Shown piece after piece: positions 10,333 to 47,954 of a DNA stretch of 51,695 nucleotides; position 1 is the first letter of the stretch, and each line of letters begins with the position of its first letter. Under the pieces are notes generated by a model. The model was not told the DNA's origin. It was given only the letters and a program-made list of their open reading frames with translations, and did not search any database. Source of the DNA: Betaproteobacteria bacterium. Lineage in GTDB: Bacteria; Pseudomonadota; Gammaproteobacteria; Burkholderiales; Rhodocyclaceae. The stretch is taken from contig JAGVUA010000033.1 of NCBI GenBank assembly GCA_019136545.1, positions 1 through 51,695 of the forward strand, in the 5' to 3' direction. The translations under genes and the position numbers were made by a program.

Positions 10333-10357
10333 GGCGCCCCGCGGGGACTGACTTTCG
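10333..10357 (+). repeat. 25-bp dispersed element, intergenic copy between ilvD and PilZ gene
   Basis: Perfect core CTGACTTTCG at 10348-10357. The 5' block at 10333 starts GGCG in the standard register but its second half (GGGGA) diverges and forms a CCCCGCGGGG palindrome instead. This is the only copy found fully outside a coding region. Confidence 0.5.
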
Positions 10358-10377
10358 CCGATCCGGACGCGGCGCGG

Positions 10378-11280
10378 TCAGGCGCGCGAATTCAACAACC
10401 GCGTCTTGATCTCGATGGCATCCATCATCCGGATCCGCTCGAAGTCGCCATCGCGGTACAACTGCTCGACCTGGACGACGCAGAAATCACCCTCGCCGCG
10501 CATGGTCTTGCCGCGAATGCGATAGGTCGTCTCGATGCTGCCAAAATCGAACTCGACGACCACCGGGCCGCCGGGCTTGAGCGCCGGCATGGGTCGGCCG
10601 TCGCCGCTGACGCTCAGCCGCAGCGAGTTTTCGGAAAAATCGCGCAGCACGCAGCGGAACGGCGGCGTGTCCTTGGCGAAATAGAGATCGGCCCAGAGCG
10701 CCGCCGCCACGCGCTGGTGGCGGCGTTTGTCGACCACTTTCAGCGTCGCGAAATCCGGCGCCAGCAGGATGGTCGCGCTGCCGGCGTAGGGGCCTTCTTC
10801 CATCACCTGACGGCGCTCGACCACCGTGTCGACGCTCGGCAAACAGCGCTCGACGTTCTCGGCGACCAGCGTAATGGTGTTGCCCTTGCGGAATTGCCCG
10901 GCCGGACCGAGCGCCGCGCGGGTGACGTAGTCGAGCTTGCGTTCCATTTCACTGGTGTCGGGCACGAGAATCTCGAAGCTCGTCAGCTTGTTGACCGGCA
11001 GCACCTCGCCGTCGTCCAGCCGGAAACCGGTCGGATGACCCTGGCCGTCGAGCAGCACGGCGTCGTGGGTATAGATCAGACGCTCATTGACGCGATAGCC
11101 GATCGCCAACGTGTGCAGCACCGCCTTCTGGTGGTATTCCGGGTAGTACAGCAGCTTGCGGCCGATCGGGAAATAAGTGGCGAGCTGCTTCAGCTTGATT
11201 CGGTCGAAGACGAACGCCGGCGCCTTTTTCTTATCGGCAGTCTTGGCCGAACCGCGGCCTTTCCAGAGCTTGTCGAGCAT
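10378..11280 (-). CDS. PilZ-domain protein
   Basis: This 300-residue cytosolic protein ends in a PilZ domain, which binds cyclic di-GMP in many bacteria. The PilZ part begins near residue 190, with the Arg-rich KRRHQR loop, and continues to [11 protein letters not shown]. The usual (D/N)xSxxG motif is present but its Gly is Leu here, so c-di-GMP binding is probable but not certain. The N-terminal 180 residues form a YcgR-like or flagellar-brake-like domain that I recognise only loosely ([24 protein letters not shown]). It is divergent from lgt. A role in motility or surface attachment is inferred from the fold. A CheZ-like gene sits elsewhere in the window (34551-35132). Confidence 0.8.
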
Positions 11281-11294
11281 GAAGTATTGTCAGT

Positions 11295-11316
11295 GCGCTG
11301 ATCGCGGAATCAGCGC
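11295..11316. repeat. Inverted repeat upstream of the PilZ gene
   Basis: GCGCTGAT (11295-11302) and ATCAGCGC (11309-11316) form a perfect 8-bp stem with a CGCGGA loop, 15 bases upstream of the PilZ gene start. It would lie in that gene's leader or act as an operator in the divergent region with lgt. A related CGCTGATCGC string follows at about 11329. Confidence 0.45.
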
Positions 11317-11366
11317 GCAAGATACACGCTGATCGCCGCGGACGAAAGACGTCGGCCGTCCCGCGC

Positions 11367-11372
11367 TAAACT
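11367..11372 (+). promoter_or_regulatory. Candidate -10 box for lgt
   Basis: TAAACT within GCGCTAAACTGG places a start point about 36 bases before the lgt ATG. No convincing -35 is visible in the GC-rich sequence before it. Confidence 0.28.
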
Positions 11373-11414
11373 GGCATCTGCCGCCGACCGCCGATTCCGA
11401 TTCGATTCCATCGC

Positions 11415-12193
11415 ATGCTGATCCATCCCCAGTTCGACCCCGTTGCCGTCAGTCTTGGTCCGCTGGCCGTCCGTTGGTATGGCTTGATGTATCTCGCCGG
11501 CTTCATCGCCTTCCTCGTGCTCGGCCGGCGCCGCGCGGCGAGCCAGCCCTGGCACGGCATCGACCTCAAGGCGCTCGACGACCTGCTGTTCTACGGCGTG
11601 CTCGGCGTCATCGTCGGCGGCCGGCTCGGCCAGGTGCTGTTCTACGAGCCCGGCTACTACGCCGCGCATCCGCTGGAGATCGTCGCCGTCTGGAAAGGCG
11701 GCATGAGCTTCCACGGCGGCTTCCTCGGCGTGCTGGTGGCAATGGGCCTGTGGGGGCGGCGGCACGGCAAGACCTTCTTCCAGGTCACCGACTTCATCGC
11801 GCCGCTGGTGCCGCTCGGCCTGATGGCGGGCCGCATCGGCAACTTCATCAACGGCGAGCTGTGGGGGCGTGTCGCCGCGGCTGACTTTCCGCTGGCCATG
11901 GTGTTCCCGCAGGTCGACAGCCTGCCGCGCCACCCCTCGCCGCTCTATCAGGCCGTCGGCGAAGGGTTGCTGCTGTTCGTCGTCCTCTGGTGGTACTCGG
12001 CCCGGCAACGGCCGCGCGGCGCGGTCTCCGGCGTGTTCCTGATCGGCTACGGCATCGCCCGCTTCGTCGCCGAATTTTTCCGCGAGCCGGACGCCGGCAT
12101 CTTCGGCCATTCCTACGTCGTCAGCATGGGACAATGGCTGAGCCTGCCGATGATCGTCGCCGGTCTTTATCTGCTCACGAGGAAAACCAAGTC

Positions 12194-12197
<4 letters not shown>
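11415..12197 (+). CDS. lgt: Prolipoprotein diacylglyceryl transferase
   Basis: Lgt transfers diacylglycerol from phosphatidylglycerol to the lipobox cysteine of prolipoproteins, the first step of lipoprotein maturation, in the inner membrane. The protein has 260 residues and about seven membrane helices. The family signature [14 protein letters not shown] is complete, and the essential HGG motif is in [14 protein letters not shown] at 11415 opens with [25 protein letters not shown], the usual start of proteobacterial Lgt. The stop overlaps the next gene's ATG (ATGA), so the VOC gene is translationally coupled. A copy of the dispersed repeat is embedded in the coding sequence (11866-11890, encoding GRVAAADFP just after the signature). 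Confidence 0.97.
11866..11890 (+). repeat. 25-bp dispersed element inside lgt
   Basis: 5' block GGCGTGTCGCCGCGG followed by CTGACTTTCC: four changes from the consensus 5' block and one in the core. It is read in the gene's frame as part of RVAAADFP. Confidence 0.5.
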
Positions 12198-12655
<458 letters not shown>

Positions 12656-12656
12656 C

Positions 12657-13520
12657 TCACAGGCTCGCCGCCTGGAAAGTGTTGCACTGGTTCATGTCGC
12701 CGCTTTCGATGCCGCGCTTGAACCAGCGCACGCGCTGTTCCGACGTGCCGTGGGTGAAAGCGTCGGGCACCACGCGGCCGCGCGCCTGCTTTTGCAAGGT
12801 GTCGTCGCCGATCGCCGAGGCGGCCGTCAGCGCCTGCTCGACGTCGCCGGCTTCGAGGATGTGGCGCGCCTCGTTGGCCTGCGCCGCCCAGACGCCGGCC
12901 AGGCAATCCGCCTGCAATTCGAGGCGCACGGACAAGGCATTGGCCTGACCTTCGCTGCGCGCGCGCTGCTGAGCGTTCTGCACTTTTTCGGAGATGCCCA
13001 GCAGGTTCTGCACGTGATGTCCCACTTCGTGCGCGATGACATAGGCCTGGGCGAATTCGCCGGGCGCGCGGAAGCGGTTCTTCAGTTCCTGGTAGAAGGC
13101 GAGGTCGATATAGACCTTGTGGTCGAGCGGACAGTAGAACGGCCCCATGGCGGTCTGGCCGGTGCCGCAGGCCGTCGGCGTGCCGCCGCTGAACAGCACC
13201 AGCTTCGGATCCTCGTACTGGCGGCCCATCTGCCGAAACTGATCCTGCCAGGTGCGCTCGGTGGAACCGAGCACTTTGCTGACGAAGCGCGCCATTTCGT
13301 CATCCGCCGGCGGCTTGCCGGCGGGAACTTCCTGCACTTGGCCGCCGCCCTGCATCTGCGTGGCGACGCCGATCACGGCGGACGGATCGACGCCGAAGAA
13401 GTAACTGGCCGCCAGCGCCAGGATGATGGTGCCGATGCCGACGCTGCCGGCGCGCATGGGCATGCCCATGCCGCGCCGGTCCTCGACGTTGCCGCTTTCC
13501 TGTTCGTCATCCATGCGCAT
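12657..13520 (-). CDS. Neutral zinc metallopeptidase (YpfJ family)
   Basis: This is a 287-residue membrane-anchored putative zinc peptidase of the YpfJ / zinc_peptidase family. One membrane helix lies at residues 27-45 after a polar N-terminus. The zinc motif HEVGH is at residues 164-168, and the downstream ELQADCLAG (Glu201) likely supplies the third ligand. The C-terminal THGTSEQRVRWFKRG segment is strongly conserved in this family. The substrate is unknown. ATG at 13520 has GAGGAG 6 bases upstream; the long upstream extension of the frame overlaps the outer-membrane-factor gene and is not real. The stop is one base from the convergent VOC gene's stop. Confidence 0.92.
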   Translation of the reverse strand: MRMDDEQESGNVEDRRGMGMPMRAGSVGIGTIILALAASYFFGVDPSAVIGVATQMQGGGQVQEVPAGKPPADDEMARFVSKVLGSTERTWQDQFRQMGRQYEDPKLVLFSGGTPTACGTGQTAMGPFYCPLDHKVYIDLAFYQELKNRFRAPGEFAQAYVIAHEVGHHVQNLLGISEKVQNAQQRARSEGQANALSVRLELQADCLAGVWAAQANEARHILEAGDVEQALTAASAIGDDTLQKQARGRVVPDAFTHGTSEQRVRWFKRGIESGDMNQCNTFQAASL

Positions 13521-13569
13521 GAGATTCTCCTCGCTTGCCATCGATGACGCATGATACTCGCGGCTGTCC

Positions 13570-14826
13570 TCAGTGCTCGTGGTCGGCGTCGTCGTCGAGC
13601 GACCACAGCGCATGGGCGTCGAGCAACAACCGGTAGCGCGCCTCGTTGGCGTCCAGCCGCGCCTGACTTTCGGCCAGCCGCGCCTCGATCGCCTGCCGGC
13701 GCGCCGTTTGCAGCTCACCGAACTGGCCTTCGCCGAGCCGCCAGGCCTTGTCCAGCAGATGGGCGTTGCCCGCCATTCGCTGTGCGACTTCGGCCAGCCG
13801 CTGCCATTGGGCGTAAGCGCCGTGGGCGGCGGCGACCGTGCGCCGCGCTTCCGTCTCCACCCGCGCGCGCACCAGGGCCTCGCGCGCACTGGCCGCATCG
13901 GCCTCGGCCACGCCGGCGCGAGCGCTGGCGGCGCGCGAGGCGCCGCCGAGCGGGATGGTCAGCTGCAGCCCGACGATGTGTTCCTGGCCGCCGCGCTCCG
14001 ACATCGCGCGCAGGCCCACCGTCGGATCGGCGACGCGATCGGCATCGAGCCGCTGCGCGGCCAGCCGGCTGCGCCGCGTCGCCAGCGTCGCCACGCGTTG
14101 TTCGTGGCTGTGCGCGAGGATGCGCTCGCGCCAATGCTCGGCGGCATCGGTAGTATTGGCCGGCGGCTGCGGGTCCGCCGGAACGATCGTCGTCGGCAAC
14201 GCGACGGCCGGGAAATCCTGCGACACCGCTAGCGCCGCATGTTCGCGCCGCGTCTGCGCCTGCGCCAGTTGCGCCTGCGCCTGCAGCAATTGCGCTTCGG
14301 CCAGCAGGGCCTCGAGACGCGCCGCATCGCCCGCGCCGACCCGCTTGGCGACCACCTCCTGCTGGCGCTGGAGGACGACCACCTGCGCCTGCCACTCCTG
14401 CGCGGCAACCGTCTCCCGCTGCCAGTCGAACCAGCGTTTCAGCAACAGCCGGCTGCTTTCGTGCAGGGCGTCGCCGACCATGAAACGGGCCTGCTCGACG
14501 CCCACGGCGCCCAGTTCGGCATCGACGGCCGCCTTGCCCGGCAGGCGGAACGCGCGTTCGACGCCGATCTCATGCTCGTTGTAACTGGCGTCCAGCGGCC
14601 GATCGCGGCGCTGCTGCCCCGACAGCTTGAGCGCAAACTCGTGCGGTCCGGCTTCGAGCCGCTCGCGGTTGGCCTGCTCGGCGCGCAGGCCGGCCTCGGC
14701 CGCACGCACCGTCGGATGCTCGTGCAAGGCCCGCTCGACCTGCGCCCCCGGCGGCAGGTCGGGAAAATCGGCCGCCGCCGCCGCCGCGGCCAGCAGCCAA
14801 AAAATCGGCAGCAGCCCGCCTTTCAT
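13570..14826 (-). CDS. TolC-family outer-membrane efflux protein (CzcC-like)
   Basis: This 418-residue outer-membrane factor is the exit duct of the metal efflux pump encoded just upstream. It has a signal peptide (MKGGLLPIFWLLAAAAAAA) and two OEP repeats rich in Ala/Gln/Arg coiled coil. ATG at 14826 overlaps the DUF3240 stop (ATGA) and follows GGGGAG with an 8-base spacer. A His/Asp-rich end (DDDADHEH) could touch metal. It is the last gene of the B-A-DUF3240-C operon, whereas in the classic czc operon C comes first. A dispersed-repeat copy lies in its 3' part (13648-13672). Confidence 0.88.
   Translation of the reverse strand: MKGGLLPIFWLLAAAAAAADFPDLPPGAQVERALHEHPTVRAAEAGLRAEQANRERLEAGPHEFALKLSGQQRRDRPLDASYNEHEIGVERAFRLPGKAAVDAELGAVGVEQARFMVGDALHESSRLLLKRWFDWQRETVAAQEWQAQVVVLQRQQEVVAKRVGAGDAARLEALLAEAQLLQAQAQLAQAQTRREHAALAVSQDFPAVALPTTIVPADPQPPANTTDAAEHWRERILAHSHEQRVATLATRRSRLAAQRLDADRVADPTVGLRAMSERGGQEHIVGLQLTIPLGGASRAASARAGVAEADAASAREALVRARVETEARRTVAAAHGAYAQWQRLAEVAQRMAGNAHLLDKAWRLGEGQFGELQTARRQAIEARLAESQARLDANEARYRLLLDAHALWSLDDDADHEH
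13648..13672 (+). repeat. 25-bp dispersed element inside the CzcC-like gene
   Basis: 5' block GGCGTCCAGCCGCGC plus perfect core CTGACTTTCG. The 5' block differs by only two bases from the metH copy at 41337-41361, defining a subfamily. It is antisense to the gene and read there as ESQARL. Confidence 0.5.
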
Positions 14827-15134
14827 ATCAGGCTCCCCGCTTCGAGCACCGGGCTCAGCCACCAGACCACGGCGCGGCTGGGCAGTTCGGCGCGCAGCTC
14901 CTGCAGCAGTTCGGCAACATGGCCGCCATCCATCAGGATCTCGATCTCGACGCGCGCCGCGCGGCCGCGCACCTGCTCTTCCGCGCTTTCCATGCTCTCG
15001 GGATCGCCATGGCCCTCGACATGACGGGTGATGAACGGGCCGACCCATCGCGGGTGCTGGAGCAGGCAATCGATGACCTGGGTTTCCAGCGCGCGCGGCA
15101 GGAGCAGCTTCAGGCAGGCATCGAGGCGTTTCAT
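14823..15134 (-). CDS. DUF3240 family protein of a metal efflux operon
   Basis: This small soluble protein of 103 residues is DUF3240-like, with a PII-like ferredoxin fold expected. It begins MKRLDACLKLLLPRALETQV and contains ILMDGGHVAELLQEL. Genes of this type occur next to CzcA/CusA pumps, where they are suspected of sensing or regulating the metal pump, by analogy with CutA/PII proteins (inference). Its ATG overlaps the czcA stop and its stop overlaps the next ATG, both as ATGA, so it is translated together with the pump. No metal-binding motif is evident apart from a few His residues. Confidence 0.85.
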   Translation of the reverse strand: MKRLDACLKLLLPRALETQVIDCLLQHPRWVGPFITRHVEGHGDPESMESAEEQVRGRAARVEIEILMDGGHVAELLQELRAELPSRAVVWWLSPVLEAGSLI

Positions 15135-18100: not shown

Positions 18101-18193
18101 GAAGGCGAAGATGCCGGCGCCAACCAGCAGCAGCGCGGCAATCAGCACCAGCAGGCGCTGGCTCAGACAAAACTCGGTCAGCCGTGCGAACAT
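15131..18193 (-). CDS. czcA: Heavy-metal RND efflux pump, CzcA/CusA family
   Basis: This is a 1020-residue inner-membrane proton-driven pump of the HME-RND group, exporting divalent or monovalent metal ions with the adaptor and outer-membrane factor encoded alongside. It has 12 predicted membrane helices with two large periplasmic loops. The family segment LMSLGGLAIAIGMLVDAAVVVVEN carries the helix-4 Asp of the proton relay. TM1 begins FCLSQRLLVLIAALLLVGAG and is followed by LPIDAFPDVS. The start at 18193 lies one base after the adaptor stop. In-frame upstream ATG/GTG codons would extend into the adaptor gene and are rejected. Metal specificity (Zn/Co/Cd versus Cu/Ag) is not determined here. 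Confidence 0.95.
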   Translation of the reverse strand: MFARLTEFCLSQRLLVLIAALLLVGAGIFAFNGLPIDAFPDVSSTQVKVIMKAPGMTPEEVEARIVTPIEVELLGIPHKRMLRSTAKYAIADITLDFDDGTDIYWARQQVAERLAGVFKDLPEGVSGGLAPITTPLGEMLMFTVEGDIGLEEKRTLLDWTIRPQLRTLPGVADVNSLGGLVRTFEVTPILIALKARGLQIADLARTLEANNRNDGAGRLTEGEESLLVRVDGNVRTIEDLRAIVVHRDVGGRVTRLGDVATVRIGSLTRYGFVTHGGKDEAVEGLVLGLRGANARQVVEAVRAKLADIAPSLPPGVTTQVFYDRGALVERAVGTVSKALGEAIVLVLVLLLAFLGNLRAAIAVACVLPLAALITFIMMRLTGMSANLMSLGGLAIAIGMLVDAAVVVVENIESRLADAAGAKLPFLHRVYRAVSEVTAPVVSGMTIIVIVFLPLLTLQGLEGKLFIPVALTIVFALSGSLLLSLTVIPVLTSYLLKPAREHHEPWLPRQAMRLYEPVLVWSLANARKVIAAALGLLAATVAAFLLLGKTFIPTMDEGDILLQLAKLPSIALEQSAQTDLAVQRALLERVPEIKDIVARTGSDELGLDPMGLNETDSFLVLAPREQWRKQDKEWLTGEIRKVMADFPGMDIAFTQPIEMRVSEMLTGTRGDLAIKIFGPDLAELNALAERIAALLKTIPGAQDVLTVKNEGVQYYSVEIDRLAAGRFGLSIEEIAAALRAQIEGRSVGIVLEGNRRTPLMIKGGEGMRHSPVLFANMQLALPDGGNVPLSALARLKRVAGPVKVDHQDAARMAVVQANVTGRDLVGFVEAAKAKVAAEVKLDAGYRLAWGGQFENQQRAAQRLMLVVPIALALIFHILFTTFGSIKQAAMVFVNIPFALIGGVFALLITGEYLSVPASVGFIALLGIAVLNGLVLISHFNQLRAQGLPLDRVVVEGARRRLRPVLMTASIAAFGLVPLLFATGPGSEIQRPLAIVVIGGLVTSTLLTLVMLPILYRRWGSE

Positions 18194-18194
18194 G

Positions 18195-19289
18195 TCACTG
18201 CTCGGCCGCACCCAGCCCCAACCAGACGCCTTTGAGCGTGGCGATGCCCTTGACGGCGATGCGCGCCGACGCATCGACCGGCATGGCGACGCGCGACGAC
18301 TGCGCCGATTCTTCCAGCACCTGTACCGCCACCGGCCGGAAGCCGCCCGGCACCTCGACGAACGCCCAGGTGCGCGAGAGATGGCGGGTCAACGCGCCGG
18401 CCGGCACGCGCCAGGCATCACTGCTGCCCGTCTCCGCCGGCTGCACGTCCACTTGCACGAACTGATTGGGCCGCACGCAGGCGACGCGGTAGGGCAGTTC
18501 GGCGCGCAGGCGCAGGGACTGGTCGTGAGCATCGACCTGCGGCGCGATGACGGTGACGCGGCCGCCCGACGGACAGCCAGGCACCTTGACCTCGTCGCCC
18601 ACCGCGATGCCGGCGGCCTGCGCCGGCGTCGCCTGGATCTCCACCCACAAGGGCGAGATGCGGCCGAGCTTGAACAGCGGCGTCATGGCATCGACGCGCT
18701 GGCCCGGCTGCGCCGACGCCTCCAGCACCACGCCGTCGAAGGGCGCACGGATGTCGGCGCCGCTCGCCAGGGCGGCCTGCGCCCCGGGTTCCGCCAGGCC
18801 GGCGAGTCGCAGCGACTGACTTTTCTCGGCCAGCGCCAGCGCCGCCTGCCGCTCGGCGGCGCGCGTGGCCGACAGGCGGCCTTGAGGAATGATGCCATCT
18901 GCGTAGAGGCTCTCGTCGCGACGCAGGTTCTCGATGGCCAGGCTGGCTTGCGACCGGGCCTGGGCAAACTCGCGCTGCAATTCAAGCAGCGGCGCGCCCT
19001 GCAAACGAGCCAGCACCTGGCCCTTCTTCACAGTCTCGCCGTGCCCGATGCGCACGGCCGCGACCATGGCCGGCAACGGCGCGGTGATCACCTCGATCCG
19101 TGACGGCGGCACCACGACCTGCGCGGGCAGGCGGATGCCGCCGGTCGCCTTCATGTCCGCCAGCGCCGCGGCGGCAATACCGGCTTTGCCGGCCTGCTCC
19201 GCCGAAATGGCGATCAACTCGTCGGTGGCGAAAGCCGCGGCGGCATTCGCTGCGGCCAGCAGCAACAGACAGCTACGAAATGGCACCAT
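18195..19289 (-). CDS. RND efflux periplasmic adaptor (CzcB/CusB-like)
   Basis: This 364-residue membrane-fusion protein bridges the RND pump and the outer-membrane factor in the periplasm. A signal peptide (MVPFRSCLLLLAAANAAAAFA) is followed by barrel-sandwich hybrid halves (PAMVAAVRIGHGETVKKGQVL and IRAPFDGVVLEASAQPGQRV), a helical hairpin between them and a C-terminal beta-barrel. The ATG at 19289 is preferred to a TTG eight codons upstream because it begins the signal peptide. It is the first gene of the operon, directly downstream of a palindrome-bearing promoter. A copy of the dispersed repeat lies in the hairpin region (18801-18825). Confidence 0.9.
   Translation of the reverse strand: MVPFRSCLLLLAAANAAAAFATDELIAISAEQAGKAGIAAAALADMKATGGIRLPAQVVVPPSRIEVITAPLPAMVAAVRIGHGETVKKGQVLARLQGAPLLELQREFAQARSQASLAIENLRRDESLYADGIIPQGRLSATRAAERQAALALAEKSQSLRLAGLAEPGAQAALASGADIRAPFDGVVLEASAQPGQRVDAMTPLFKLGRISPLWVEIQATPAQAAGIAVGDEVKVPGCPSGGRVTVIAPQVDAHDQSLRLRAELPYRVACVRPNQFVQVDVQPAETGSSDAWRVPAGALTRHLSRTWAFVEVPGGFRPVAVQVLEESAQSSRVAMPVDASARIAVKGIATLKGVWLGLGAAEQ
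18801..18825 (+). repeat. 25-bp dispersed element, degenerate copy inside the adaptor gene
   Basis: GGCGAGTCGC starts in the standard register 15 bases before CTGACTTTTC. The rest of the 5' block has drifted. It is antisense to the gene, read there as EKSQSLRLA, the same frame as in the CzcC-like gene and cca. Confidence 0.38.
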
Positions 19290-19323
19290 CTGGATCGATC
19301 CTGGCTGAAACAACTAAAACCGA

Positions 19324-19355: not shown

Positions 19356-19370
19356 GCAAGCAGTCTCGCG

Positions 19371-21365
<1,995 letters not shown>

Positions 21366-22877: not shown

Positions 22878-24410
<1,533 letters not shown>

Positions 24411-24431: not shown

Positions 24432-25436
24432 CTAGAAATAGCGGTTCAGCATGTTGAGCAACTTGTGCGCGGCGGCGGCCGGCGTGACGGCGCCGGCTTC
24501 CACGGAACGCGCCAGTTCGGGCAGCGCGCCGTGTACCGCCGGGTGTTCGCGGAAGCGCCGGCGCAGGCCGGCGTCGATCATGGTCCACATCCAGTCCCGC
24601 GCCTGACGGCGCCGCTTGGCGGCCAGTTCGCCGGCGTCGGTCATCGTCTGCCGATAGTTGAGCAGCGTCTGCCAAAAGTCAGCGATGGCGGTACGCTGAA
24701 TGGCGCTGACGGTCAGCACCGGCGGCTGCCAGCGGGCCGCTGCCGGCCGCAGCATGGCCAGCGCGGCGCGCATCTGCGCCGCCGCACGCTCGGCGGCCAC
24801 CGGATCGATATCGGCCTTGTTGAAGGCCACGATGTCGGCCAGCTCGACGACGCCTTTCTTGATCGCCTGCAGGTCGTCGCCGGCGTTGGGCAGCTGCAGC
24901 AGCACGAAGCAGTCGGTCATGCCGGCGACTGTAGTTTCGCTCTGACCCACGCCGACGGTCTCGACCAGGATGACGTCGAAGCCGGCCGCCTCGCACAGCA
25001 GCAGCGCCTCGCGGGTTTTTTCGGCGACGCCGCCGAGCGAACCGGAGGACGGCGAGGGGCGAATGAAGGCCTCGGTGCGCTGGCTGAGAATCTCCATGCG
25101 CGTCTTGTCGCCGAGGATGGAGCCGCCGGTGACCGATGAGGAGGGATCGACCGCCAGCACGGCGATGCGATGGCCCTGCCCGATCAGATGCAGTCCGAAC
25201 GCCTCGATGAAGGTCGACTTGCCGACGCCGGGAACGCCGGTGATGCCGATGCGCAACGATCGGCCGGTGTGCGGCAGCAGCGTTTCGAGCAGCGCCTCGG
25301 CGCGCTGTTGATGGTCCGGCTTGATCGACTCGATCAGCGTGATCGCCTTGGCCAGCGCGCGCCGGTTGCCGCCCAGCACGCCGTCGGCGAGCGCGCGGTC
25401 TTCCGCGGACAATGCGCTTGGCGAAAAGTCAGCCAT
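24432..25436 (-). CDS. meaB: MeaB GTPase, methylmalonyl-CoA mutase chaperone
   Basis: MeaB (ArgK family) is a G3E-like GTPase that loads B12 into methylmalonyl-CoA mutase and protects it from inactivation. The 334-residue protein has the P-loop GVPGVGKS (residues 67-74), the long switch region LAVDPSSSVTGGSILGDKTR, the typical ETVGVGQSE and the base-specificity motif NKAD. It lies 23 bases downstream of the mutase. The start at 25436 falls inside a copy of the dispersed repeat, so the first residues MADFS are encoded by it, and no clear SD sequence precedes it. A second copy lies near its 3' end (24673-24697). Both copies are in the same orientation as the gene. Confidence 0.95.
   Translation of the reverse strand: MADFSPSALSAEDRALADGVLGGNRRALAKAITLIESIKPDHQQRAEALLETLLPHTGRSLRIGITGVPGVGKSTFIEAFGLHLIGQGHRIAVLAVDPSSSVTGGSILGDKTRMEILSQRTEAFIRPSPSSGSLGGVAEKTREALLLCEAAGFDVILVETVGVGQSETTVAGMTDCFVLLQLPNAGDDLQAIKKGVVELADIVAFNKADIDPVAAERAAAQMRAALAMLRPAAARWQPPVLTVSAIQRTAIADFWQTLLNYRQTMTDAGELAAKRRRQARDWMWTMIDAGLRRRFREHPAVHGALPELARSVEAGAVTPAAAAHKLLNMLNRYF
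24673..24697 (-). repeat. 25-bp dispersed element near the 3' end of meaB
   Basis: 5' block AGCGTACCGCCATCG, two changes from the best copy, then CTGACTTTTG. Read in the gene as RTAIADF, matching the RTAMADF of the copy at the meaB start. Confidence 0.55.
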
Positions 25437-25447
25437 GGCGGTGCGCC
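25423..25447 (-). repeat. 25-bp dispersed element spanning the meaB start codon
   Basis: 5' block GGCGCACCGCCATGG and CTGACTTTTC. The ATG of meaB (25436-25434) is part of the block, and codons 2-4 (Ala-Asp-Phe) are read from the core. Confidence 0.55.
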
Positions 25448-25459
25448 GATCCGGGCCGC

Positions 25460-30008: not shown

Positions 30009-30782
30009 TTGGGCGACATCCTGATCAGCCGTGACGGCGGCATCGCCACCGTCACGCTCGCCAATCCCGGCAAGCTCAATGCCGTCGACGCCGCCATGTG
30101 GCGCCGGCTGGCAGCGGCCATGGCCGGTCTCGACGGCGACGAGACGCTGCGCGCGGTCGTCGTGCGCGGCGACGGTGCGGCGTTCGCCGCCGGCGGCGAC
30201 CTCGAGGAGTTCAGCGAGGCGCGCGACACGCCCGACAAGGCGCTGGCCTATCACCACGCGGTCGGCCGTGCGCTCGACGCGCTGGCCGCATGCCGGCACC
30301 CGACGGTCGCGCTCGTTCACGGGCCGTGCGTCGGCGGCGGCCTGGCGATCGCCTGCGCTTGCGACCTGCGCATCGCCGGCGAATCGGCCCGCTTCGGCGC
30401 GCCGATCGGCAAACTCGGCTTTTCCATGTACCCCGGCGAAATCGCTCTGCTGCTTTCCCTGGTCGGCCCGGCCGTGGTCAAGGAGATCCTGCTCGAGGGC
30501 CGGTTGCTGACTGCGCGCCACGCGCTCGAGAAGGGCTTGGTCACGCGCGTGGTCGGCGACGCCGAGGTCGACGACGAGGCGTATGCCACGGCCCGGCGCA
30601 TCGCCGCCGGCGCGCCGCTGGTCGCCCGCTGGCACAAGCAGTGGATCGCCCGGCTGCAGGATACGGCGCCTTTGACGCCCGACGAGCGGCGCGCATCCTT
30701 CGCCTTTCTCGACACCGCCGACTATCGCGAGGGCATGGCCGCCTTCCGCGAGAAGCGGCCGCCGCGCTTCACCGGCAAGTAA
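30009..30782 (+). CDS. Enoyl-CoA hydratase/isomerase family protein
   Basis: This 257-residue crotonase-fold enzyme acts on acyl-CoA thioesters. Oxyanion-hole segments are FAAGGDLEEF and GPCVGGGLAIACACDLRIA, both typical of the family. The segment GKLGFSMYPGEIALL differs from classical hydratases, where a catalytic Glu lies in this region; Glu in PGE may serve. The exact substrate cannot be called. The start is a TTG at 30009 (reading GDILISRDGG next), with no strong SD, 30 bases after the SQR stop. It is followed by the dsrE-like gene 15 bases downstream, so the SQR, hydratase and DsrE genes may form one transcript. Confidence 0.82.
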   Translation: MGDILISRDGGIATVTLANPGKLNAVDAAMWRRLAAAMAGLDGDETLRAVVVRGDGAAFAAGGDLEEFSEARDTPDKALAYHHAVGRALDALAACRHPTVALVHGPCVGGGLAIACACDLRIAGESARFGAPIGKLGFSMYPGEIALLLSLVGPAVVKEILLEGRLLTARHALEKGLVTRVVGDAEVDDEAYATARRIAAGAPLVARWHKQWIARLQDTAPLTPDERRASFAFLDTADYREGMAAFREKRPPRFTGK

Positions 30783-30797: not shown

Positions 30798-31250
30798 ATG
30801 CGTCGATTCCTGATCCTGTTGGCTGCGCTGGCGTCATTGCTGGCGGCCCCGGTGTCGGCCGCCGGTTCGAAAGTCAGTGGCGGCACAGCGCCGAAAGCGC
30901 TCGACCGTGTGGACCGTGTGGTCGTCCAGATCAACGAGGACGACTCGAAGAAATGGCACGCCGTGCTCGCCAACATCCACAACATTCAGGCCGAGTTGGG
31001 CGCCGGCAACGTCAGGATCGCCGTCGTCGTCATCGGCCCCGGCCTGGGCATGCTGATGGCCGACGCGCTGACCGCCAACGGCGTGCAGGACGCGATGGCG
31101 GCGGGCGTCGAATTCGTCGCCTGCGGCAATTCCATGAAGGCGCTGAAGATCGACAAGGCCGATCTGATCGATGGCGTGGGCGTCACCGTGGCCGGCTACG
31201 TCGAGCTGATCCGCCGGCAACGGCAGGGCTGGGCCTACCTGCGGCCATGA
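30798..31250 (+). CDS. Secreted DsrE-family protein
   Basis: This 150-residue protein has a signal peptide (MRRFLILLAALASLLAAPVSA) and a DsrE/DsrF-like domain. The single Cys109 (FVACGNSM) is in the place of the DsrE-like persulfide cysteine. DsrE proteins relay sulfur as protein persulfide. A periplasmic version next to SQR could accept polysulfide sulfur (inference). Residues 24-32 (SKVSGGTAP), just after the signal peptide, are encoded by a copy of the dispersed repeat that lacks three bases and so keeps frame. The stop overlaps the next ATG (ATGA). An ATG at 30798 is favoured by the signal peptide. Confidence 0.85.
   Translation: MRRFLILLAALASLLAAPVSAAGSKVSGGTAPKALDRVDRVVVQINEDDSKKWHAVLANIHNIQAELGAGNVRIAVVVIGPGLGMLMADALTANGVQDAMAAGVEFVACGNSMKALKIDKADLIDGVGVTVAGYVELIRRQRQGWAYLRP
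30868..30889 (-). repeat. Dispersed element, 22-bp variant inside the dsrE-like gene
   Basis: 5' block GCTGTGCCGCCA followed directly by CTGACTTTCG; the three bases preceding the core in other copies are missing. It is antisense to the gene and read as SKVSGGTAP. Confidence 0.55.
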
Positions 31251-31927
31251 CCGCCATGACGCTGGCCGACTGGTCCCGGATCGACACCGTCCTGCTCGAC
31301 ATGGACGGCACCTTGCTCGATCTCCACTTCGACAACCACTTCTGGCAGAGCCACGTGCCGCAGCGCTATGCCGAGACGCGCGGCCTGAGCCGCGAAGCGG
31401 CCCGCGAGGAACTGATGAGCCGCTACCATGCGCGCGCCGGCACGCTCGACTGGTACTCGGTCGATTTCTGGGCGACAGAGCTGGAAATGGACATCATGCG
31501 CCTCAAGGAAGAGGTCGCGCACCTGATCGCCGTGCATCCGACCGTCACCGAATTCCTCGCCGCCGTGCGCGCCACCGGCCGGCGCGTGGCGCTGGTCACC
31601 AACGCGCATCACAAGAGCGTGACGCTGAAGATGGCGCGCACCGGGCTGCGCCCTCATTTCGACGCCATCGTCAGCTCGCATGCGCTCGGCCTGCCCAAGG
31701 AGGACGTCGGCTTCTGGCACCGGCTGCAGGAAGTCGAACCTTTCGAGCCGGCGCGCAGCCTGCTGGTCGACGACAGCCTGCCGGTGCTCGATTCGGCGCG
31801 TGCCCACGGCATCGGCCAACTGCTAGCCGTGCGCCGGCCGGACACCCGGCAACCGGAAAAGGATACCGCCGGCTATCGCGCCATCGGCAGCTTTGCCGAG
31901 ATCATGCCGGCGCGGCGCGCCGGCTGA
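31247..31927 (+). CDS. HAD-superfamily hydrolase (YrfG-like GMP/IMP nucleotidase)
   Basis: This 226-residue cytosolic phosphatase has the HAD motif I DMDGTLLDL (nucleophile Asp18, acid Asp20), motif II LVTNAHH, motif III lysine in GLPKEDVGFW and motif IV VDDSLPVLDSA. The opening LLDMDGTLLDLHFDNHFWQ is characteristic of the YrfG-type GMP/IMP nucleotidases found in proteobacteria. It starts at the ATG that overlaps the dsrE-like stop by ATGA; a second ATG three codons on is possible. It would be translated with the upstream genes. It is unlikely to be part of the sulfur function. Confidence 0.88.
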   Translation: MTAMTLADWSRIDTVLLDMDGTLLDLHFDNHFWQSHVPQRYAETRGLSREAAREELMSRYHARAGTLDWYSVDFWATELEMDIMRLKEEVAHLIAVHPTVTEFLAAVRATGRRVALVTNAHHKSVTLKMARTGLRPHFDAIVSSHALGLPKEDVGFWHRLQEVEPFEPARSLLVDDSLPVLDSARAHGIGQLLAVRRPDTRQPEKDTAGYRAIGSFAEIMPARRAG

Positions 31928-31939
31928 CGTTCACCGCGC

Positions 31940-33148: not shown

Positions 33149-33346
33149 ATGCTGAAATGGGCATGGGTCCTATTCCTCGTCGTCGCCGTGCTCGGTCTGC
33201 TGCATCCGGCGCTGGCGGCGCGTCTGCGGCTGGGCCGCTTGCCGGGCGACCTGCGCTTCCGGCATCGCGGCCGCGACTACCTCTTCCCGTTCGCCAGCAC
33301 GCTGCTGCTGTCGCTGCTGGCGACGCTACTGTTCCGCTGGTTGTAG
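33149..33346 (+). CDS. DUF2905 small membrane protein
   Basis: This 65-residue protein has two membrane helices (residues 4-22 and about 46-64) separated by the basic loop LRLGRLPGDLRFRHRGRDYLFPF. The GRLPGD...FPF pattern is the DUF2905 mark. The function is unknown. The ATG at 33149 is chosen over an earlier one (33089) because the protein then begins directly with the helix. Its last 21 bases overlap the 3' end of the convergent cca gene. Confidence 0.82.
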   Translation: MLKWAWVLFLVVAVLGLLHPALAARLRLGRLPGDLRFRHRGRDYLFPFASTLLLSLLATLLFRWL

Positions 33347-34549
33347 CGCAGCAAGCACGGCGGCCGCGCGCGCTTCGTGAAGGCGCGCGGGAATTTGCGC
33401 CGGATCGGCGCAGGCGGCGGCAATCGCACCGGCATCGACGGCGCGCGCCGCGCCCGCGGCGCGCCGCCACGCCTGACTTTGCGGATAGTCGCGCGATTCG
33501 TATCCCAGCCGGCCCCGGTAATCCGCTTCGCACGCCGACAGGACTTCCTCGAAGCGTTCCGGCCGGCGGAAGACGTCGCAGCGCTCGAGCAGGCGCACCA
33601 CCGTGGTCGGCCGCAGCTCGGCGATCCTGTGCATGTCGCCGTGAAACCGAGCCACCAGCAGCGCCACGTCGCGGCAGTCGGTGGGTACGCGCAGGCGCTC
33701 GCAGAGGGGGCCGAGCAGGGATACGCTGCGCTGTTCGTGGCCAAAATGGCGCGGCAGCACGTCGGGCGGCGTCAGGCCCTTGCCCAGATCGTGCGTCAGG
33801 GCGGCGAAGCGCGCCGGCAAGGACAGCGCCATCGCCGCCGCCCTATCCACCACCATCATGACATGCGTACCGGTGTCGATCTCCGGATGGTGATCGGCGC
33901 GCTGCGGCACGCCCCAGAGCCGGTCGAGTTCCGGCAGGATGCGCGCCAGCGCGCCGCACTGGCGCAGCAGTTCGAACATGCGCGACGGCCGGGCCTCCAT
34001 CAGCCCGCGCGCCAGTTCCTGCCAGATGCGCTCCGGCACCAGATGATCGACTTCGCCGTTCGCCACCATGCGCGCCATCAGCGCCAGCGTTTCCTCGGCG
34101 ACGGTGAACTCCTGGAAGCGCGCCGCAAAGCGCGCCACGCGCAGCACGCGCACGGGATCTTCGGCAAAGGCGGGCGACACGTGGCGCAGCACCTTGGCGG
34201 CGAGATCGTTCCGGCCGTCATGCGGGTCGACATAGGCGCCGTCCTCGGACCGGGCGATGGCATTGATGGTGAGATCCCGCCGCGCCAGGTCGTCCTCGAG
34301 CGTAACGTCGGCATCGGCATGGAATACGAAGCCCTTGTAGCCGGGCGCGGTCTTGCGCTCGGTGCGCGCCAGCGCATATTCCTCGTGCGTCTCCGGGTGC
34401 AGGAAAACCGGGAAATCCTTGCCGACCGCCGTGAAGCCGCGCGCCGCCATCTCTTCCGGCGTCGCGCCCACCACCACCCAGTCGCGGTCCTGGACCGGCA
34501 GGCCCAGCAGTTCGTCGCGGACGGCGCCGCCGACGGCGTAGATCTTCAA
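33326..34549 (-). CDS. cca: CCA tRNA nucleotidyltransferase with HD domain
   Basis: This enzyme builds or repairs the 3' CCA of tRNAs without a template, and the HD domain (bacterial multifunctional type) adds phosphatase/phosphodiesterase activity. The 407 residues start MKIYAVGGAVRDELLG, with the nucleotidyltransferase motif, and contain RRDLTINA and the HD motif LTHDLGKG. Length and layout match E. coli Cca (412 residues). It is followed upstream by a CheZ-like gene one base away, so they are cotranscribed. A dispersed-repeat copy is embedded at 33458-33482, near its 3' end. Confidence 0.95.
   Translation of the reverse strand: MKIYAVGGAVRDELLGLPVQDRDWVVVGATPEEMAARGFTAVGKDFPVFLHPETHEEYALARTERKTAPGYKGFVFHADADVTLEDDLARRDLTINAIARSEDGAYVDPHDGRNDLAAKVLRHVSPAFAEDPVRVLRVARFAARFQEFTVAEETLALMARMVANGEVDHLVPERIWQELARGLMEARPSRMFELLRQCGALARILPELDRLWGVPQRADHHPEIDTGTHVMMVVDRAAAMALSLPARFAALTHDLGKGLTPPDVLPRHFGHEQRSVSLLGPLCERLRVPTDCRDVALLVARFHGDMHRIAELRPTTVVRLLERCDVFRRPERFEEVLSACEADYRGRLGYESRDYPQSQAWRRAAGAARAVDAGAIAAACADPAQIPARLHEARAAAVLAALQPAEQ
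33458..33482 (+). repeat. 25-bp dispersed element inside cca
   Basis: 5' block GGCGCGCCGCCACGC and core CTGACTTTGC. The block is one or two bases from the metH copy at 41337 (same subfamily). Read antisense in cca as SQAWRRA. Confidence 0.5.
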
Positions 34550-36890: not shown

Positions 36891-36909
36891 GCCGCGGCTC
36901 CGGAATTCA

Positions 36910-38620: not shown

Positions 38621-42355
<3,735 letters not shown>

Positions 42356-42387
42356 AAATTACCGGAACTTATTGATATGAAATGCAA

Positions 42388-42393
42388 ATTTTA
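42388..42393 (-). promoter_or_regulatory. Candidate -10 box for metH
   Basis: GCTAAAATTTG on the minus strand contains TAAAAT (42393-42388), placing a start about 26 bases before the metH ATG. There is no clear -35, and no MetR-type TGAA-N5-TTCA site is evident. Confidence 0.33.
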
Positions 42394-42397
42394 GCAC

Positions 42398-42414
42398 GCC
42401 GGCCACTGGCCGGC
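42398..42414 (-). terminator. Hairpin after the histidine kinase gene
   Basis: GCCGGCC and GGCCGGC pair around an ACT loop, five bases past the kinase stop. The next 15 bases on the minus strand are AT-rich (GCTAAAATTTG) but do not form a pure T-run, so termination is plausible and not certain. Confidence 0.45.
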
Positions 42415-42418
42415 CAGC

Positions 42419-45400: not shown

Positions 45401-45550
45401 GGCCTGCATGAGCGCGGCCGGATCGCTGAACAACGCGCCCAGCGCGCGATCCGACAGCAGAATCCAAAGGCTGGCGACCAGCGCATACGCCAGCACGACG
45501 GCAAAAATGCCGCGCGATAAGGATCCAGCCTCCTCCTCCACCCTGTTCAC
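42419..45550 (-). CDS. Hybrid sensor histidine kinase with PAS domains, receiver and HPt
   Basis: This 1043-residue inner-membrane sensor has two N-terminal helices (residues 14-33, 52-72) and three PAS domains (about 97-210, 220-335, 362-477). A HisKA/HATPase core follows, with the phospho-acceptor His525 in NMSHEIRTP and the G box [10 protein letters not shown] receiver domain accepts phosphate at Asp817 ([13 protein letters not shown]), and a C-terminal HPt domain carries His977 (AHTLKG). The phosphorelay would therefore be complete inside one chain, awaiting a separate output regulator. No response regulator is adjacent. The start is a GTG at 45550 with AGAGG upstream. The signal sensed is unknown. 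Confidence 0.93.
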
Positions 45551-45605
45551 GCGCCTCCTCTCGATCGGTGCGTCTACGCGCTATGCTCTGCTCCGGAGCG
45601 CGGCC

Positions 45606-45611
45606 ATTATA
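45606..45611 (-). promoter_or_regulatory. Perfect -10 box for the histidine kinase gene
   Basis: TATAAT on the minus strand (45611-45606), in a short AT-rich patch, is about 56 bases upstream of the GTG start. No -35 resembling TTGACA lies at the right distance. The rest of the 204-base spacer 45551-45754 shows nothing I can identify apart from the rhodanese SD. Confidence 0.4.
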
Positions 45612-45754
45612 TAAAATTATGCGATTTGGCACCTCTTCATGAACCCGATCGCGTCGATTCGCAACAGGCTTTTGCCGCGGGCTGCGATAATCCGCTGACT
45701 GGATTCATGCCTCGATCGGCTTTAACTGTCCGCGCCCAACCCACGGAGACCGAT

Positions 45755-46147
45755 ATGGAACATCTCACCCCCAAGGAAGCTGCCCAGTTCCTGGATGACA
45801 ACCCCAAGGCGCTGTTCATCGATTGCCGCAGCGAAATGGAGTTTCTTTTCGTCGGCCATCCCAAGGATTGCCTGCATGTTTCGTGGAACGACGGCCCGGA
45901 CTGGGAGGTGAATCCCCATTTCGTCGGCGAGGTGAAAAAACTCGCCGGCCACGCCCATGACCGCCCCGTCGTCATCATCTGCCGGTCCGGCAACCGCTCG
46001 GTCGATGCCGGCAACGCGCTGGAAGCCGCTGGCTTCGAGCGCGTCTATAACGTCCTCCACGGTTTCGAGGGCGAACTGGACGACGACCACCACCGCGGCA
46101 TGACCAACGGCTGGCGTTTCGACGGCCTGCCCTGGGAGCAGTGCTGA
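45755..46147 (+). CDS. Rhodanese-like sulfurtransferase
   Basis: This 130-residue single-domain rhodanese has the active-site loop CRSGNRS (Cys76 forms the persulfide). The early LFIDCRSEMEFLFVGH segment is the CH2A-like motif of the fold. It would move sulfane sulfur to thiols in the cytosol. ATG at 45755 follows GGAG with a 7-base spacer. Its last codons overlap the GTG start of the thioredoxin-like gene, so translation is coupled. It may detoxify or pass on sulfur formed elsewhere, such as by SQR (inference). Confidence 0.93.
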   Translation: MEHLTPKEAAQFLDDNPKALFIDCRSEMEFLFVGHPKDCLHVSWNDGPDWEVNPHFVGEVKKLAGHAHDRPVVIICRSGNRSVDAGNALEAAGFERVYNVLHGFEGELDDDHHRGMTNGWRFDGLPWEQC

Positions 46148-46641
46148 AGCGTTGGCGGAAGCGGGCGCTGGAAGCGGGCGTCATCCTCGCCGTCATTCTC
46201 GGCGCGCAGTACTGGCAAACGCGCGGTTTGCCCGAGGGTTCCGCGCCGCCGCTGGCCGGCACCTTGCTCGATGGCCGATCGACCAGCCTCGAAGACACCC
46301 GTAAGACGGCCGGCGGCAAACCCGTGCTGGTCGTCTTCTGGGCCACTTGGTGCCCGGTCTGCGCGGCCGAGGAAGGCAACATCGAGGCCGTCGCGCGCGA
46401 CCATCCGGTCCTTTCGGTGGCCATGCAGTCGGAAGACGTCGCCCGGCACATGCGGACGCGCGGGCTGAGTTTCCCGGCCATCGACGACCCGGAGGGCAGG
46501 ATCGCGTCGGCCTGGAAGGTCAATGGCGTGCCGGCGCATTTCGTCGTCGACGGCGCCGGCAAGGTGCGCTTCCGCGTGGTCGGCTACGCCACCGAGTGGG
46601 GCCTGCGCGCCCGCCTCTGGTGGTCGAGGCAGTTCTTGTGA
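46141..46641 (+). CDS. Membrane-anchored thioredoxin-like protein (TlpA/ScsD-like)
   Basis: This 166-residue periplasm-facing redox protein has one N-terminal anchor helix (residues 11-26, after a basic stretch) and a thioredoxin fold with CPVC (Cys71, Cys74) in FWATWCPVCAAEEG. GVPAHFVVDGAGKV supplies the cis-Pro region. It resembles ScsD/TlpA-type disulfide reductases. The start is GTG at 46141, seven bases before the rhodanese stop ends, and its own stop overlaps the GTG of the MFS gene, making a three-gene coupled unit. Confidence 0.9.
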   Translation: MLKRWRKRALEAGVILAVILGAQYWQTRGLPEGSAPPLAGTLLDGRSTSLEDTRKTAGGKPVLVVFWATWCPVCAAEEGNIEAVARDHPVLSVAMQSEDVARHMRTRGLSFPAIDDPEGRIASAWKVNGVPAHFVVDGAGKVRFRVVGYATEWGLRARLWWSRQFL

Positions 46642-47954
46642 CGCACCCGCCCGCTCGCTTGGCCTGGACGATCTGGGGTCTGGGCGCGCTGGTCTATCTC
46701 GTCGCCTTCTTCCAGCGCGTGGCGCCGGCGGTGATGACGGAACAGTTGATGGCCGACTTCGCCATCGGCGGCGCGGCGCTCGGCAACCTTTCGGCGTTCT
46801 ACTTCTACGCCTACGTGGCCATGCAGATTCCGACGGGGCTCCTGGCCGACCGCTGGGGACCGCGCCGGCTGTTGGCCTCGGGCACGGCGGTAGCGTCGGT
46901 CGGCGGCCTGCTGTTCGCGCTGGCGCCGGGGTTCGAGCTGGCCGCGGCCGGGCGGCTGCTGGTCGGCGCCTCGGTGGGCGTCGGCTTCGTCGCCATGCTC
47001 AAGCTGTCATCGCATTGGCTCGAGCCGCGCCGCTTCGCGCTGGTCTCGGGCCTGCTGCTGATGATGGGCCTGATCGGCGGCGTCATCGCCGGCGTGCCCT
47101 TGCGACTGGCCGTCGACGCCTTCGGCTGGCGTCCCGTGATGGCCGTGTTCGCGGTGAGCACGGCGGCGCTGGCCGCCGCCCTCTGGCTGTTCGTGCGCGA
47201 CGATCCGTCCGAGCGCGGCTACGCCAGCCACTTCCACGCGCCCGGCGCGAAAGTCAGCCGTGGTCACACGCCGATTCTCGCCAGCCTCGCCGAGGTGCTC
47301 TCCTACCGCAACATCTGGCTGTTGATGCTGGTGCCGATCGGCTTTTCCGGCGCGGTGCTGACTTTCGCCGGCCTCTGGGGCGTGCCCTGGCTGCGGCAGG
47401 TGCACGGCCTCGACGCCAAGGCCGCTGCCGCCATCACCTCGACCATGCTGGTCGCCTGGGGCATCGGCGGCCCGGTGCTGGGCAACTGGAGCACGCGCCT
47501 GGGCCGGCGCAAGCCGATCTACCTCGCCAGCGGCATCGTCGCCGTGATCGGCTGGGCCATCGTGATCTGGGCGCCGTTGCCGCTGGCGGCGCTGGTCACG
47601 CTGCTCGCCATTACCGGCTTCGCCTCGGGCAACATCATCATCGGCTTCGCCTGGGCCAAGGAATCGGTGCCGCTGCGGCTGATGGGCACGGCCTCGGGCG
47701 TGGCCAACATGGGACCGCTGATGGGCGGCATGTTCCTCCAGCCGGCGGTCGGCTGGATGCTCGACCGGCGCTGGAGCGGCGCGCTGGCCGGCGGCGGCCG
47801 CGCTTACGACGCGGCGGCCTACCAGGCCGGCTTCGCCCTGATGTTCGCCGCGGTGGCCGTCAGCCTCAGCGCGAAGGTTGTCAGGCCGAGCGCGAAGTGC
47901 TTTCAAATCCAAGCGCAATCGACTGGAATGGACGCCATCACTCGACGACTGTGA
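46638..47954 (+). CDS. Major facilitator superfamily transporter
   Basis: This 438-residue inner-membrane permease has about 12 helices and the MFS loop motif after TM2 (GLLADRWGPRRLLASG). It resembles the anion/sugar-phosphate or nitrate-type MFS group only broadly, so the substrate is unknown. GTG at 46638 overlaps the thioredoxin stop and has GAGG upstream. Two dispersed-repeat cores lie in it (47248-47272 and 47358-47367). The last about 24 residues (AKVVRPSAKCFQIQAQ...) look unlike a normal MFS end and run 17 bases into the convergent gene, in DNA of lower GC, so the original C-terminus may have been replaced. Confidence 0.88.
   Translation: MTHPPARLAWTIWGLGALVYLVAFFQRVAPAVMTEQLMADFAIGGAALGNLSAFYFYAYVAMQIPTGLLADRWGPRRLLASGTAVASVGGLLFALAPGFELAAAGRLLVGASVGVGFVAMLKLSSHWLEPRRFALVSGLLLMMGLIGGVIAGVPLRLAVDAFGWRPVMAVFAVSTAALAAALWLFVRDDPSERGYASHFHAPGAKVSRGHTPILASLAEVLSYRNIWLLMLVPIGFSGAVLTFAGLWGVPWLRQVHGLDAKAAAAITSTMLVAWGIGGPVLGNWSTRLGRRKPIYLASGIVAVIGWAIVIWAPLPLAALVTLLAITGFASGNIIIGFAWAKESVPLRLMGTASGVANMGPLMGGMFLQPAVGWMLDRRWSGALAGGGRAYDAAAYQAGFALMFAAVAVSLSAKVVRPSAKCFQIQAQSTGMDAITRRL
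47248..47272 (-). repeat. 25-bp dispersed element inside the MFS gene
   Basis: GGCGTGTGACCACGG followed by the perfect core CTGACTTTCG; five changes in the 5' block. Antisense to the gene, read as AKVSRGHTP in a cytosolic loop. Confidence 0.48.
47358..47367 (+). repeat. Bare core of the dispersed element in the MFS gene
   Basis: Perfect CTGACTTTCG but no recognisable 5' block. It encodes LTF in a membrane helix and may be chance or a remnant. Confidence 0.3.

Follow-up and report, generated by a model that had tools for sequence, protein, structure and literature searches.

Copies of a two-box repeat in the window

The window analysed here is a stretch of 51,695 nucleotides (contig JAGVUA010000033.1, assembly GCA_019136545.1) from a bacterium of the Rhodocyclaceae, whose genome, hereafter G000, comprises 3,404,842 bases in 162 contigs and is 94.8% complete. 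It carries a short dispersed repeat, made up of a core and a conserved 5' block, which we consider likely to be a DNA uptake sequence. An earlier note had described a 25-bp repeat in about a dozen copies, on both strands and mostly inside genes of unrelated function, with seven perfect cores (at 10348, 13663, 30868, 39174, 41337, 47248 and 47358). All seven cores are present at these positions, and six of them are accompanied by the 5' block, 47358 being without it. We derived a position weight matrix (PWM) from 424 kb of G000, under which 14 sites of the window scored at least 13 bits: 12 at 27-37 bits, plus a degenerate copy at 31908 (21.7 bits) and a doubtful one at 1614 (18.4 bits). When one mismatch in the core was allowed, 16 sites were found; dinucleotide shuffles gave a mean of 2.66, and none of 100 reached 16.

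The host genes are functionally unrelated, and some copies are intergenic. The doubtful copy CGCCGCCAGGCCGCGACTGACTTCCG (1614..1639, plus strand) has no homolog among the fetched loci. An ilvD-type dehydratase gene (8424-10331, minus strand; PF00920/PF24877) contains an antisense copy at 8569..8594 (plus, 31.8 bits), aligned without gaps to the relatives G028 and G030. The next copy, at 10332..10357 (plus, 28.9 bits), is located between this gene and the minus-strand open reading frame (ORF) 10378-11280, and is followed by a sense copy at 11865..11890 (plus, 31.9 bits) within lgt (11415-12197, plus; PF01790), which is ungapped against one homolog, G028. Two antisense copies were found in further ORFs, the first at 13647..13672 (plus, 28.1 bits) in that of an outer-membrane efflux protein (13570-15069, minus; PF02321), the second at 18800..18825 (plus, 27.1 bits) in that of a HlyD-type membrane-fusion protein (18195-19313, minus; PF16576/PF13437). 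Both were compared with five relatives; the multiple alignment is gap-free across the first, and the second is likewise ungapped.

The gene meaB (24432-25436, minus; PF03308) is associated with two copies. One lies in sense orientation at 24673..24698 (minus, 30.4 bits); among nine homologs it is present in G002 and G004 and split by a 24-bp insert in G001 (locus L039), and the rest align gap-free. The other, at 25423..25448 (minus, 31.1 bits), extends across the meaB start, with a MeaB match for the ORF begun there, and has homologous copies at the same place in G002 and G004 and a weaker one in G001. It contains ATG GCT GAC TTT, seemingly the start codon and first codons (MADF) of meaB. An antisense copy near the 5' end of a DsrE-like ORF (30798-31250, plus; PF02635) occupies 30868..30893 (minus, 28.2 bits). 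Three bases had been said to be missing from its 5' block; the site also fits the fixed register with mismatches, and both are fair descriptions. The degenerate copy at 31908..31933 (plus) is situated in a gene-poor gap, with better copies at or near the homologous place in G002, G001 and G004.

Further copies were found antisense in a poly(A) polymerase / tRNA nucleotidyltransferase (cca-type) ORF (33326-34549, minus; PF01743/PF12627/PF01966), at 33457..33482 (plus, 32.8 bits; ungapped across the element against six relatives in a multiple alignment), and twice in metH (38621-42355, minus; PF02965 and others): antisense in a linker of variable length at 39158..39183 (plus, 37.0 bits), and sense at 41337..41362 (minus, 36.2 bits). 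The last copy, at 47248..47273 (minus, 33.6 bits), is antisense within the large ORF 46523-47983 (plus), called MFS in the earlier note, for which the Pfam scan gave no match at 1e-5; it is common to G001 and G002, and the region is at least 3 bp shorter in several relatives lacking the copy. The core at 47358 was not counted, the best reading being that it matches by chance within a coding sequence. The proposed subfamily GGCGTCCCGCCACGC looks, under the PWM, like one end of the variation and not like a separate class.

Genome-wide copy number and dialects

The core occurs 196 times in G000 (96 forward, 100 reverse), versus 5 times for the reversed word. The motif was defined on a sample of 424,515 bases of G000, made up of the window and 20 stretches picked for containing cores, so that the density of copies in this sample differs from the genome average. 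In an alignment of 46 exact cores, columns -16 to +9 were conserved and the outer columns were not; the repeat unit, CGGCGTGYCGCCAYGGCTGACTTTCG, spans 26 bp in two boxes and lies between random flanks. An iterated motif model identified 112 copies with the consensus CGGCGTGCCGCCACGGCTGACTTTCG, and the 5' block aligns with the core in the G000 stretches outside the window as well as in relatives. Scores in this sample are clearly two-peaked. For comparison we used G015, a complete relative with a single contig of 3,145,360 bases, sampled as 60 evenly spaced 15-kb stretches (900 kb); the score histograms cover bins up to 35 for G000 and up to 33 for G015. The information content is 28.7 bits over 26 positions in G000 and 31.9 bits over 30 positions in G015. 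The length of the unit is 26 bp here instead of the 25 of the earlier note, about 24 bp being common to its dialects.

At 14 bits or more, the 112 real matches of the G000 sample compare with 3 in the reversed and 1 in a Markov sequence. Codon shuffling of the called genes left 2, 1, 0, 1 and 0 matches versus 77 in the real genes of G000, and 0, 1, 1, 0 and 0 versus 120 in those of G015. Neither outcome that the earlier note would have taken as a refutation was observed: copies are far more numerous than in codon-shuffled genes, and the 5' block does align beyond the window. The most over-represented 10-mers of the G000 sample were GGCTGACTTT (48 versus 0.9 expected) and CTGACTTTCG (46 versus 1.4), and GACTGACTTT was found 126 times in G015 versus 0.3 expected; among 10-mers seen at least 25 times, those bearing the core lead in both sampled genomes. 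The motif is thus directional and over-represented genome-wide relative to composition and codon controls. That codon bias, low complexity or the way a single metagenome bin was assembled should have produced it as an artefact is scarcely credible: the window genome is indeed a fragmented assembly of 162 contigs, but the motif is found in independent genomes, including the single-contig G015 and G124. Codon bias and composition were rejected as its source on the codon shuffles, the Markov and reversed controls and the 10-mer statistics.

The 26-bp pattern, searched with up to 3 mismatches, yielded 313 copies in G000, 145 in G001, 237 in G002 and 157 in G004, but only 5 in G003 and 2 in G005, members of the same genus; reversed, it was found in none of 101 genomes. 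With a dialect-tolerant pattern, 38 of 249 genomes of the family, from 9 of 68 genera, hold at least 50 copies (range 53 to 732), and the reversed control gave at most 4 in these 38 rich genomes. The next highest genomes of the family hold 32, 16, 15, 13 and 12 copies. An order-wide survey covered 399 genomes, 14 of them from the Rhodocyclaceae itself; each of the 385 from outside the family holds at most 10 copies, most of them none. A strict-pattern scan of named genome contigs returned 18 stretches, all from EFPC_121, NC_groundwater_1816 and fen_999, metagenome-assembled genomes labelled Rhodocyclaceae or Rhodocyclales, with match positions that coincide with those of G002, G001 and G004. 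Depleted members of rich genera comprise G128 (1 copy; 79% complete) as well as G003, G005, G281 (32), G197 (12) and G286 (0); the latter five agree with gain or loss of a non-essential trait.

Three dialects are nearly exclusive by genus in the 28 genomes tested (genera are given as g numbers). The form GCCGTNYCGCCAGCRCCGACTTT occurs exactly 25 to 361 times in members of g2, g9, g20 (33 in G024), g39 and g47, 23 to 86 times in three members of g105, never in g11 and 0 or 1 times in g1. The form GCCGTNYYGCNGNGACTGACTTT was found exactly 169, 128 and 95 times in three members of g11, 0 or 1 times in g1, and in other genera not at all except for 3 occurrences each in G028 and G329. G028 (g24) has 121 tolerant copies, yet GCCGTNYCGCCAGCRCCGACTTT is exact there only 8 times and GCCGTNYYGCNGNGACTGACTTT 3 times. 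The core trinucleotide is CTG in g1 and g11, and CCG in the commonest dialect (g2, g9, g20, g39, g47 and g105).

Two genomes with few copies may be mentioned here. G329, from another family of the order, has 10 stray copies, part of the g2-type and part of the g11-type dialect, and these seem to mark DNA that came from different Rhodocyclaceae. In G101, a member of the Rhodocyclaceae, the few copies are clustered on some contigs.

Chromosomal layout and orthologous sites

The G015 sample contains 192 copies, split 112 to 80 between the strands. Their spread is Poisson-like (variance/mean per stretch 0.93), and 98 of the 192 are in leading orientation, i.e. without replication-strand bias, the origin and terminus being placed near 0 and 1.56 Mb from the GC skew of the samples. 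A replication-oriented or terminus motif was rejected on this absence of strand skew and terminus clustering in the G015 sample. With ORFs called by a simple rule of length and GC3, 120 of 192 copies in G015 (coding fraction 0.82) and 77 of 112 in G000 (0.86) lie fully inside ORFs, a share below the coding fraction, so that non-coding DNA is somewhat enriched for copies. The reading frame that places TGA in frame is used by none of the 120 and by one of the 77.

Two head-to-head, overlapping inverted pairs with the same 24-bp offset were found in G015 (locus L148, 4679/4703 and 12864/12888). Each has a T-rich tail and resembles a terminator hairpin, the folding energies being -52.4 and -39.7 kcal/mol. 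This geometry accounts for two of 136 neighbouring pairs in the G015 sample and for none in the G000 sample. Elsewhere in G015 (L170, 12579 and 12656), an inverted pair 77 bp apart surrounds a separate long palindrome, the whole folding to -88.1 kcal/mol.

Hundreds of near-even copies in place, on both strands and in genes of unrelated function, could also be expected of a chromosome-architecture motif, a site to which a protein of the nucleoid, of segregation or of replication binds, as at matS, KOPS, SlmA or Noc sites, and which selection keeps where coding permits. The earlier note had listed such a motif among its options. We regard it as rather unlikely, since the complete G015 chromosome has neither an ori-ter pattern nor a strand bias, and since near-absence from G003 and G005, next to 145-313 copies in their four congeners, would be strange for a housekeeping site; mutually exclusive dialects and inverted pairs resembling terminators are, moreover, more typical of uptake sequences. 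HIP1 of cyanobacteria, an 8-bp palindrome of disputed function, is likewise a genome-wide motif in place, but the motif described here is about 26 bp long and directional.

We then compared orthologous sites in relatives, starting from 50 strict element instances. The 34 'sites' of this test are element instances with orthologs unmerged, and it omits pairs whose best match has 3 or 4 mismatches and pairs not spanning the site. The relative was without the motif in 145 spanning pairs; 82 of these had zero net length change and 119 were within 3 bp, while 5 differed by +21 to +34 bp. All five derive from the metH linker copy (window 39158) and its ortholog in G006, which has its own dialect there, and this is the sole orthologous site with insertion-sized differences. 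A looser comparison, admitting everything up to 3 mismatches, gave zero net change in 123 of 193 motif-lacking spanning pairs. At random places in the same loci the proportion was 1343 of 1473, as against 82 of 145 at the element, which indicates that elements sit in places more tolerant of insertions and deletions.

The second metH site (41337) is gap-free in 12 homologs, comprising three dialects as well as relatives without the motif. The g1 dialect is found there in G000, G001, G002 and G004, a g11 form in G015 and a g39 form in G043; G028 and G003 have near matches, and G051, G006, G046, G005 and G030 have no motif. On such sequence comparisons, the motif appears to arise in place at permissive sites rather than by insertion.

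The orthologous sites are therefore opposed to another option of the earlier note, a very small mobile element that inserts its own copies, like the small dispersed repeats (SDR) of cyanobacteria, REP/REPIN or the Rickettsia palindromic elements. Its fixed length, sharp edges and bimodal score distribution are what such an element might have, as are the insertion-sized differences at the metH linker and the case of a phage contig (see below) where some 60 bp between attC-like sites hold little but the element. Mobile insertion was nevertheless rejected, with 119 of 145 pairs within 3 bp and insertion-sized differences confined to one orthologous site. Moreover, the 5' hairpin GGCG-TGY-CGCC of the g1 dialect is missing from the other dialect consensus sequences, and most copies lie fully inside called ORFs; taken together, we hold a mobile element to be highly improbable. 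The cyanobacterial SDR, described by Elhai et al. in 2008, are reportedly inserted mobile elements of about 21-27 nt; they share with the present motif a very short length and sharp edges, but orthologous sites here are without insertion. REP/REPIN sequences with their RAYT transposases are similarly short and of high copy number, and one dialect here has a small terminal inverted repeat; unlike them, the present copies are mostly in genes (77 of 112), with no hairpin conserved across dialects and no sign of transposition.

Phage copies and a probable reading as uptake sequence

Viral contigs contain 112 stretches with an exact match to the g2-type dialect CGCCGTNYCGCCAGCGCCGACTTT, which occurs there in many different locations and often encodes an in-frame ...AV(S/P)PAPTF... 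linker; the g1 and g11 dialects had no exact match in viral contigs. Eighty of these stretches were fetched as loci L209-L288 (750,967 bases), in which the tolerant pattern gave 123 matches. Of 10 proteins checked from five contigs, 7 matched phage families (with identical rows for L238 and L234), including major head protein, tail fiber, primase and integrase. When plasmids and phages were searched by BLAST with a single 30-base copy, no match had an E value better than 0.1. Comparison of orthologous sites among phage contigs yielded 4 motif-lacking pairs, too few to judge.

The element of L250 (near 1455 of the reversed locus, on the minus strand) is flanked by two sites that by eye resemble attC, the integron cassette type; the stretch between them, about 60 bp, leaves no room for a gene. 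Similar flanks were seen in L213, L214, L217, L224, L234, L238, L255, L262 and L288, and across phage contigs the same left flank is joined via the element to differing right flanks.

Such joining of a shared flank to differing ones would suit a recombination-promoting site, Chi-like or a gene-conversion hotspot, spreading because repair copies it. The gain of a 26-bp word in place, hard to achieve by point mutation alone, also suggests copying by recombination. Chi-type sites, however, are short and skewed to the leading strand, whereas the present motif carries about 29-32 bits and has 98 of 192 copies in leading orientation, and the loss in sister species would be left unexplained; a site of this kind is, in our view, quite unlikely.

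Sequence-specific uptake of self-DNA is known from only two bacterial families, according to PMC12616744. We found no report of uptake sequences in Rhodocyclaceae in the open-access literature, where the core string and GCGCCGACTTT returned, among the matches listed, only papers unrelated by title. The marks of the DNA uptake sequences (DUS) and uptake signal sequences (USS) of these families are, in PMC3630211, PMC12616744, PMC1852404 and PMC2397512, many copies in place, permissive sites, lineage dialects and terminator pairs. It is on these same marks, in-place copies at permissive sites, dialects that follow lineages and terminator-like inverted pairs, that we take the present repeat as a DNA uptake sequence, the remaining option of the earlier note and the best supported of its three. 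By analogy, it is likely that the repeat is an uptake sequence in a third bacterial family, with an unusually long signal.

The repeat would then act as a label of self-DNA that the cell recognises at its surface in the course of natural transformation, the receptor probably being a subunit of the type IV pilus. Motif-bearing DNA would be taken up and recombined more often than motif-free DNA, and through this favoured uptake, copies born by mutation or imported by recombination could spread within a lineage by molecular drive. They would settle between genes and at protein positions that tolerate them, and the motif would diverge into dialects specific to genera. We infer all three of the steps on which this depends, namely binding of the motif, promotion of uptake and a pilin receptor.

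Like the DUS of Neisseriaceae, the motif is found in hundreds of copies, which lie on both strands and in place, at tolerant positions within genes and between them; both have dialects following lineages, an avoided reading frame with TGA in frame and hosts among the Betaproteobacteria, and the two terminator-like pairs of G015 recall the inverted DUS pairs that serve as terminators. It differs in its length, 24-26 bp arranged in two boxes as against about 12 nt, in being carried by phages, and in its copy number, about 120-730 per rich genome (53 in G024), whereas 2245-3269 copies are quoted for one DUS dialect in PMC3630211. The USS of Pasteurellaceae is likewise an extended motif of a strong core and a flanking conserved block, with many copies and two dialects of its own; it also forms terminator pairs, according to PMC12616744. 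By eye, however, there is no sequence similarity to the USS, which belongs to another class of bacteria, and the second box is here GC-rich and 5' of the core.

G000 encodes ComEC. It also has a type IV minor-pilin locus, in which a ComP_DUS-family pilin (39.5 bits, cut-off 27.3) adjoins a GspH/FimT-type protein; FimT is presented as a DNA-uptake pilin in PMC8897410. Sequence matches of these minor-pilin proteins in the PDB are to pilins in general, and match scores to PF16732 are modest in g1. At least one near match to the motif (up to 3 mismatches) lies nearby in 12 of 25 minor-pilin loci, a count that is uninformative.

Several observations weigh against an uptake sequence. ComP_DUS (PF16732) was found in 18 of 18 and 26 of 26 genomes, rich and poor alike, and ComEC in 26 of 28 and 28 of 28, element-poor ones included; ComEC was not detected in the poor G003 nor in the rich G004 (85% complete), both incomplete genomes, and neither of these two tested genes distinguishes rich genomes from poor ones. 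The motif exceeds the continuous DUS, of up to about 13 nt, both in length and, at 28.7 and 31.9 bits, in information content, and where all neisserial dialects share an invariant CTG core, the commonest dialect here has CCG. There is no excess of closely spaced copies, with gaps below 100 bp in 3 of 136 pairs in G015 and 1 of 91 in G000. Finally, phages carry one dialect, whereas neisserial DUS are reported in PMC2397512 to be absent from recently acquired genes, and the phage copies thus need explaining: phage modules may be exchanged via transformation, or the label may be of benefit to phages.

The kind as such, self-DNA uptake sequences, is known, and their presence in a third family, with a long signal in two boxes, would add a variety to it. 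If true, it would be a third case, in environmental bacteria relevant to groundwater and wastewater, with a signal of 24-26 bp and at least three dialects. How uptake sequences originate, what maintains them and whether species are isolated by dialects could then also be tested independently. For the fuller proposal, a third family-wide system of self-DNA labelling in Rhodocyclaceae with a long two-box signal, a pilus receptor, dialects that hinder the exchange of genes from genus to genus, and phages adopting the host dialect to pass as 'self', we see a little better than an even chance. The motif would in addition be a simple tag for tracing DNA donated to other bacteria, such as the copies in G329, and to or from phages.

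As to other features of the window, a scan for known RNA families gave 0 matches in it. ARAGORN called a 96-base tRNA-Ala (ggc) at 30102-30197, inside a long minus-strand ORF; because of its length and place this call is likely to be false.

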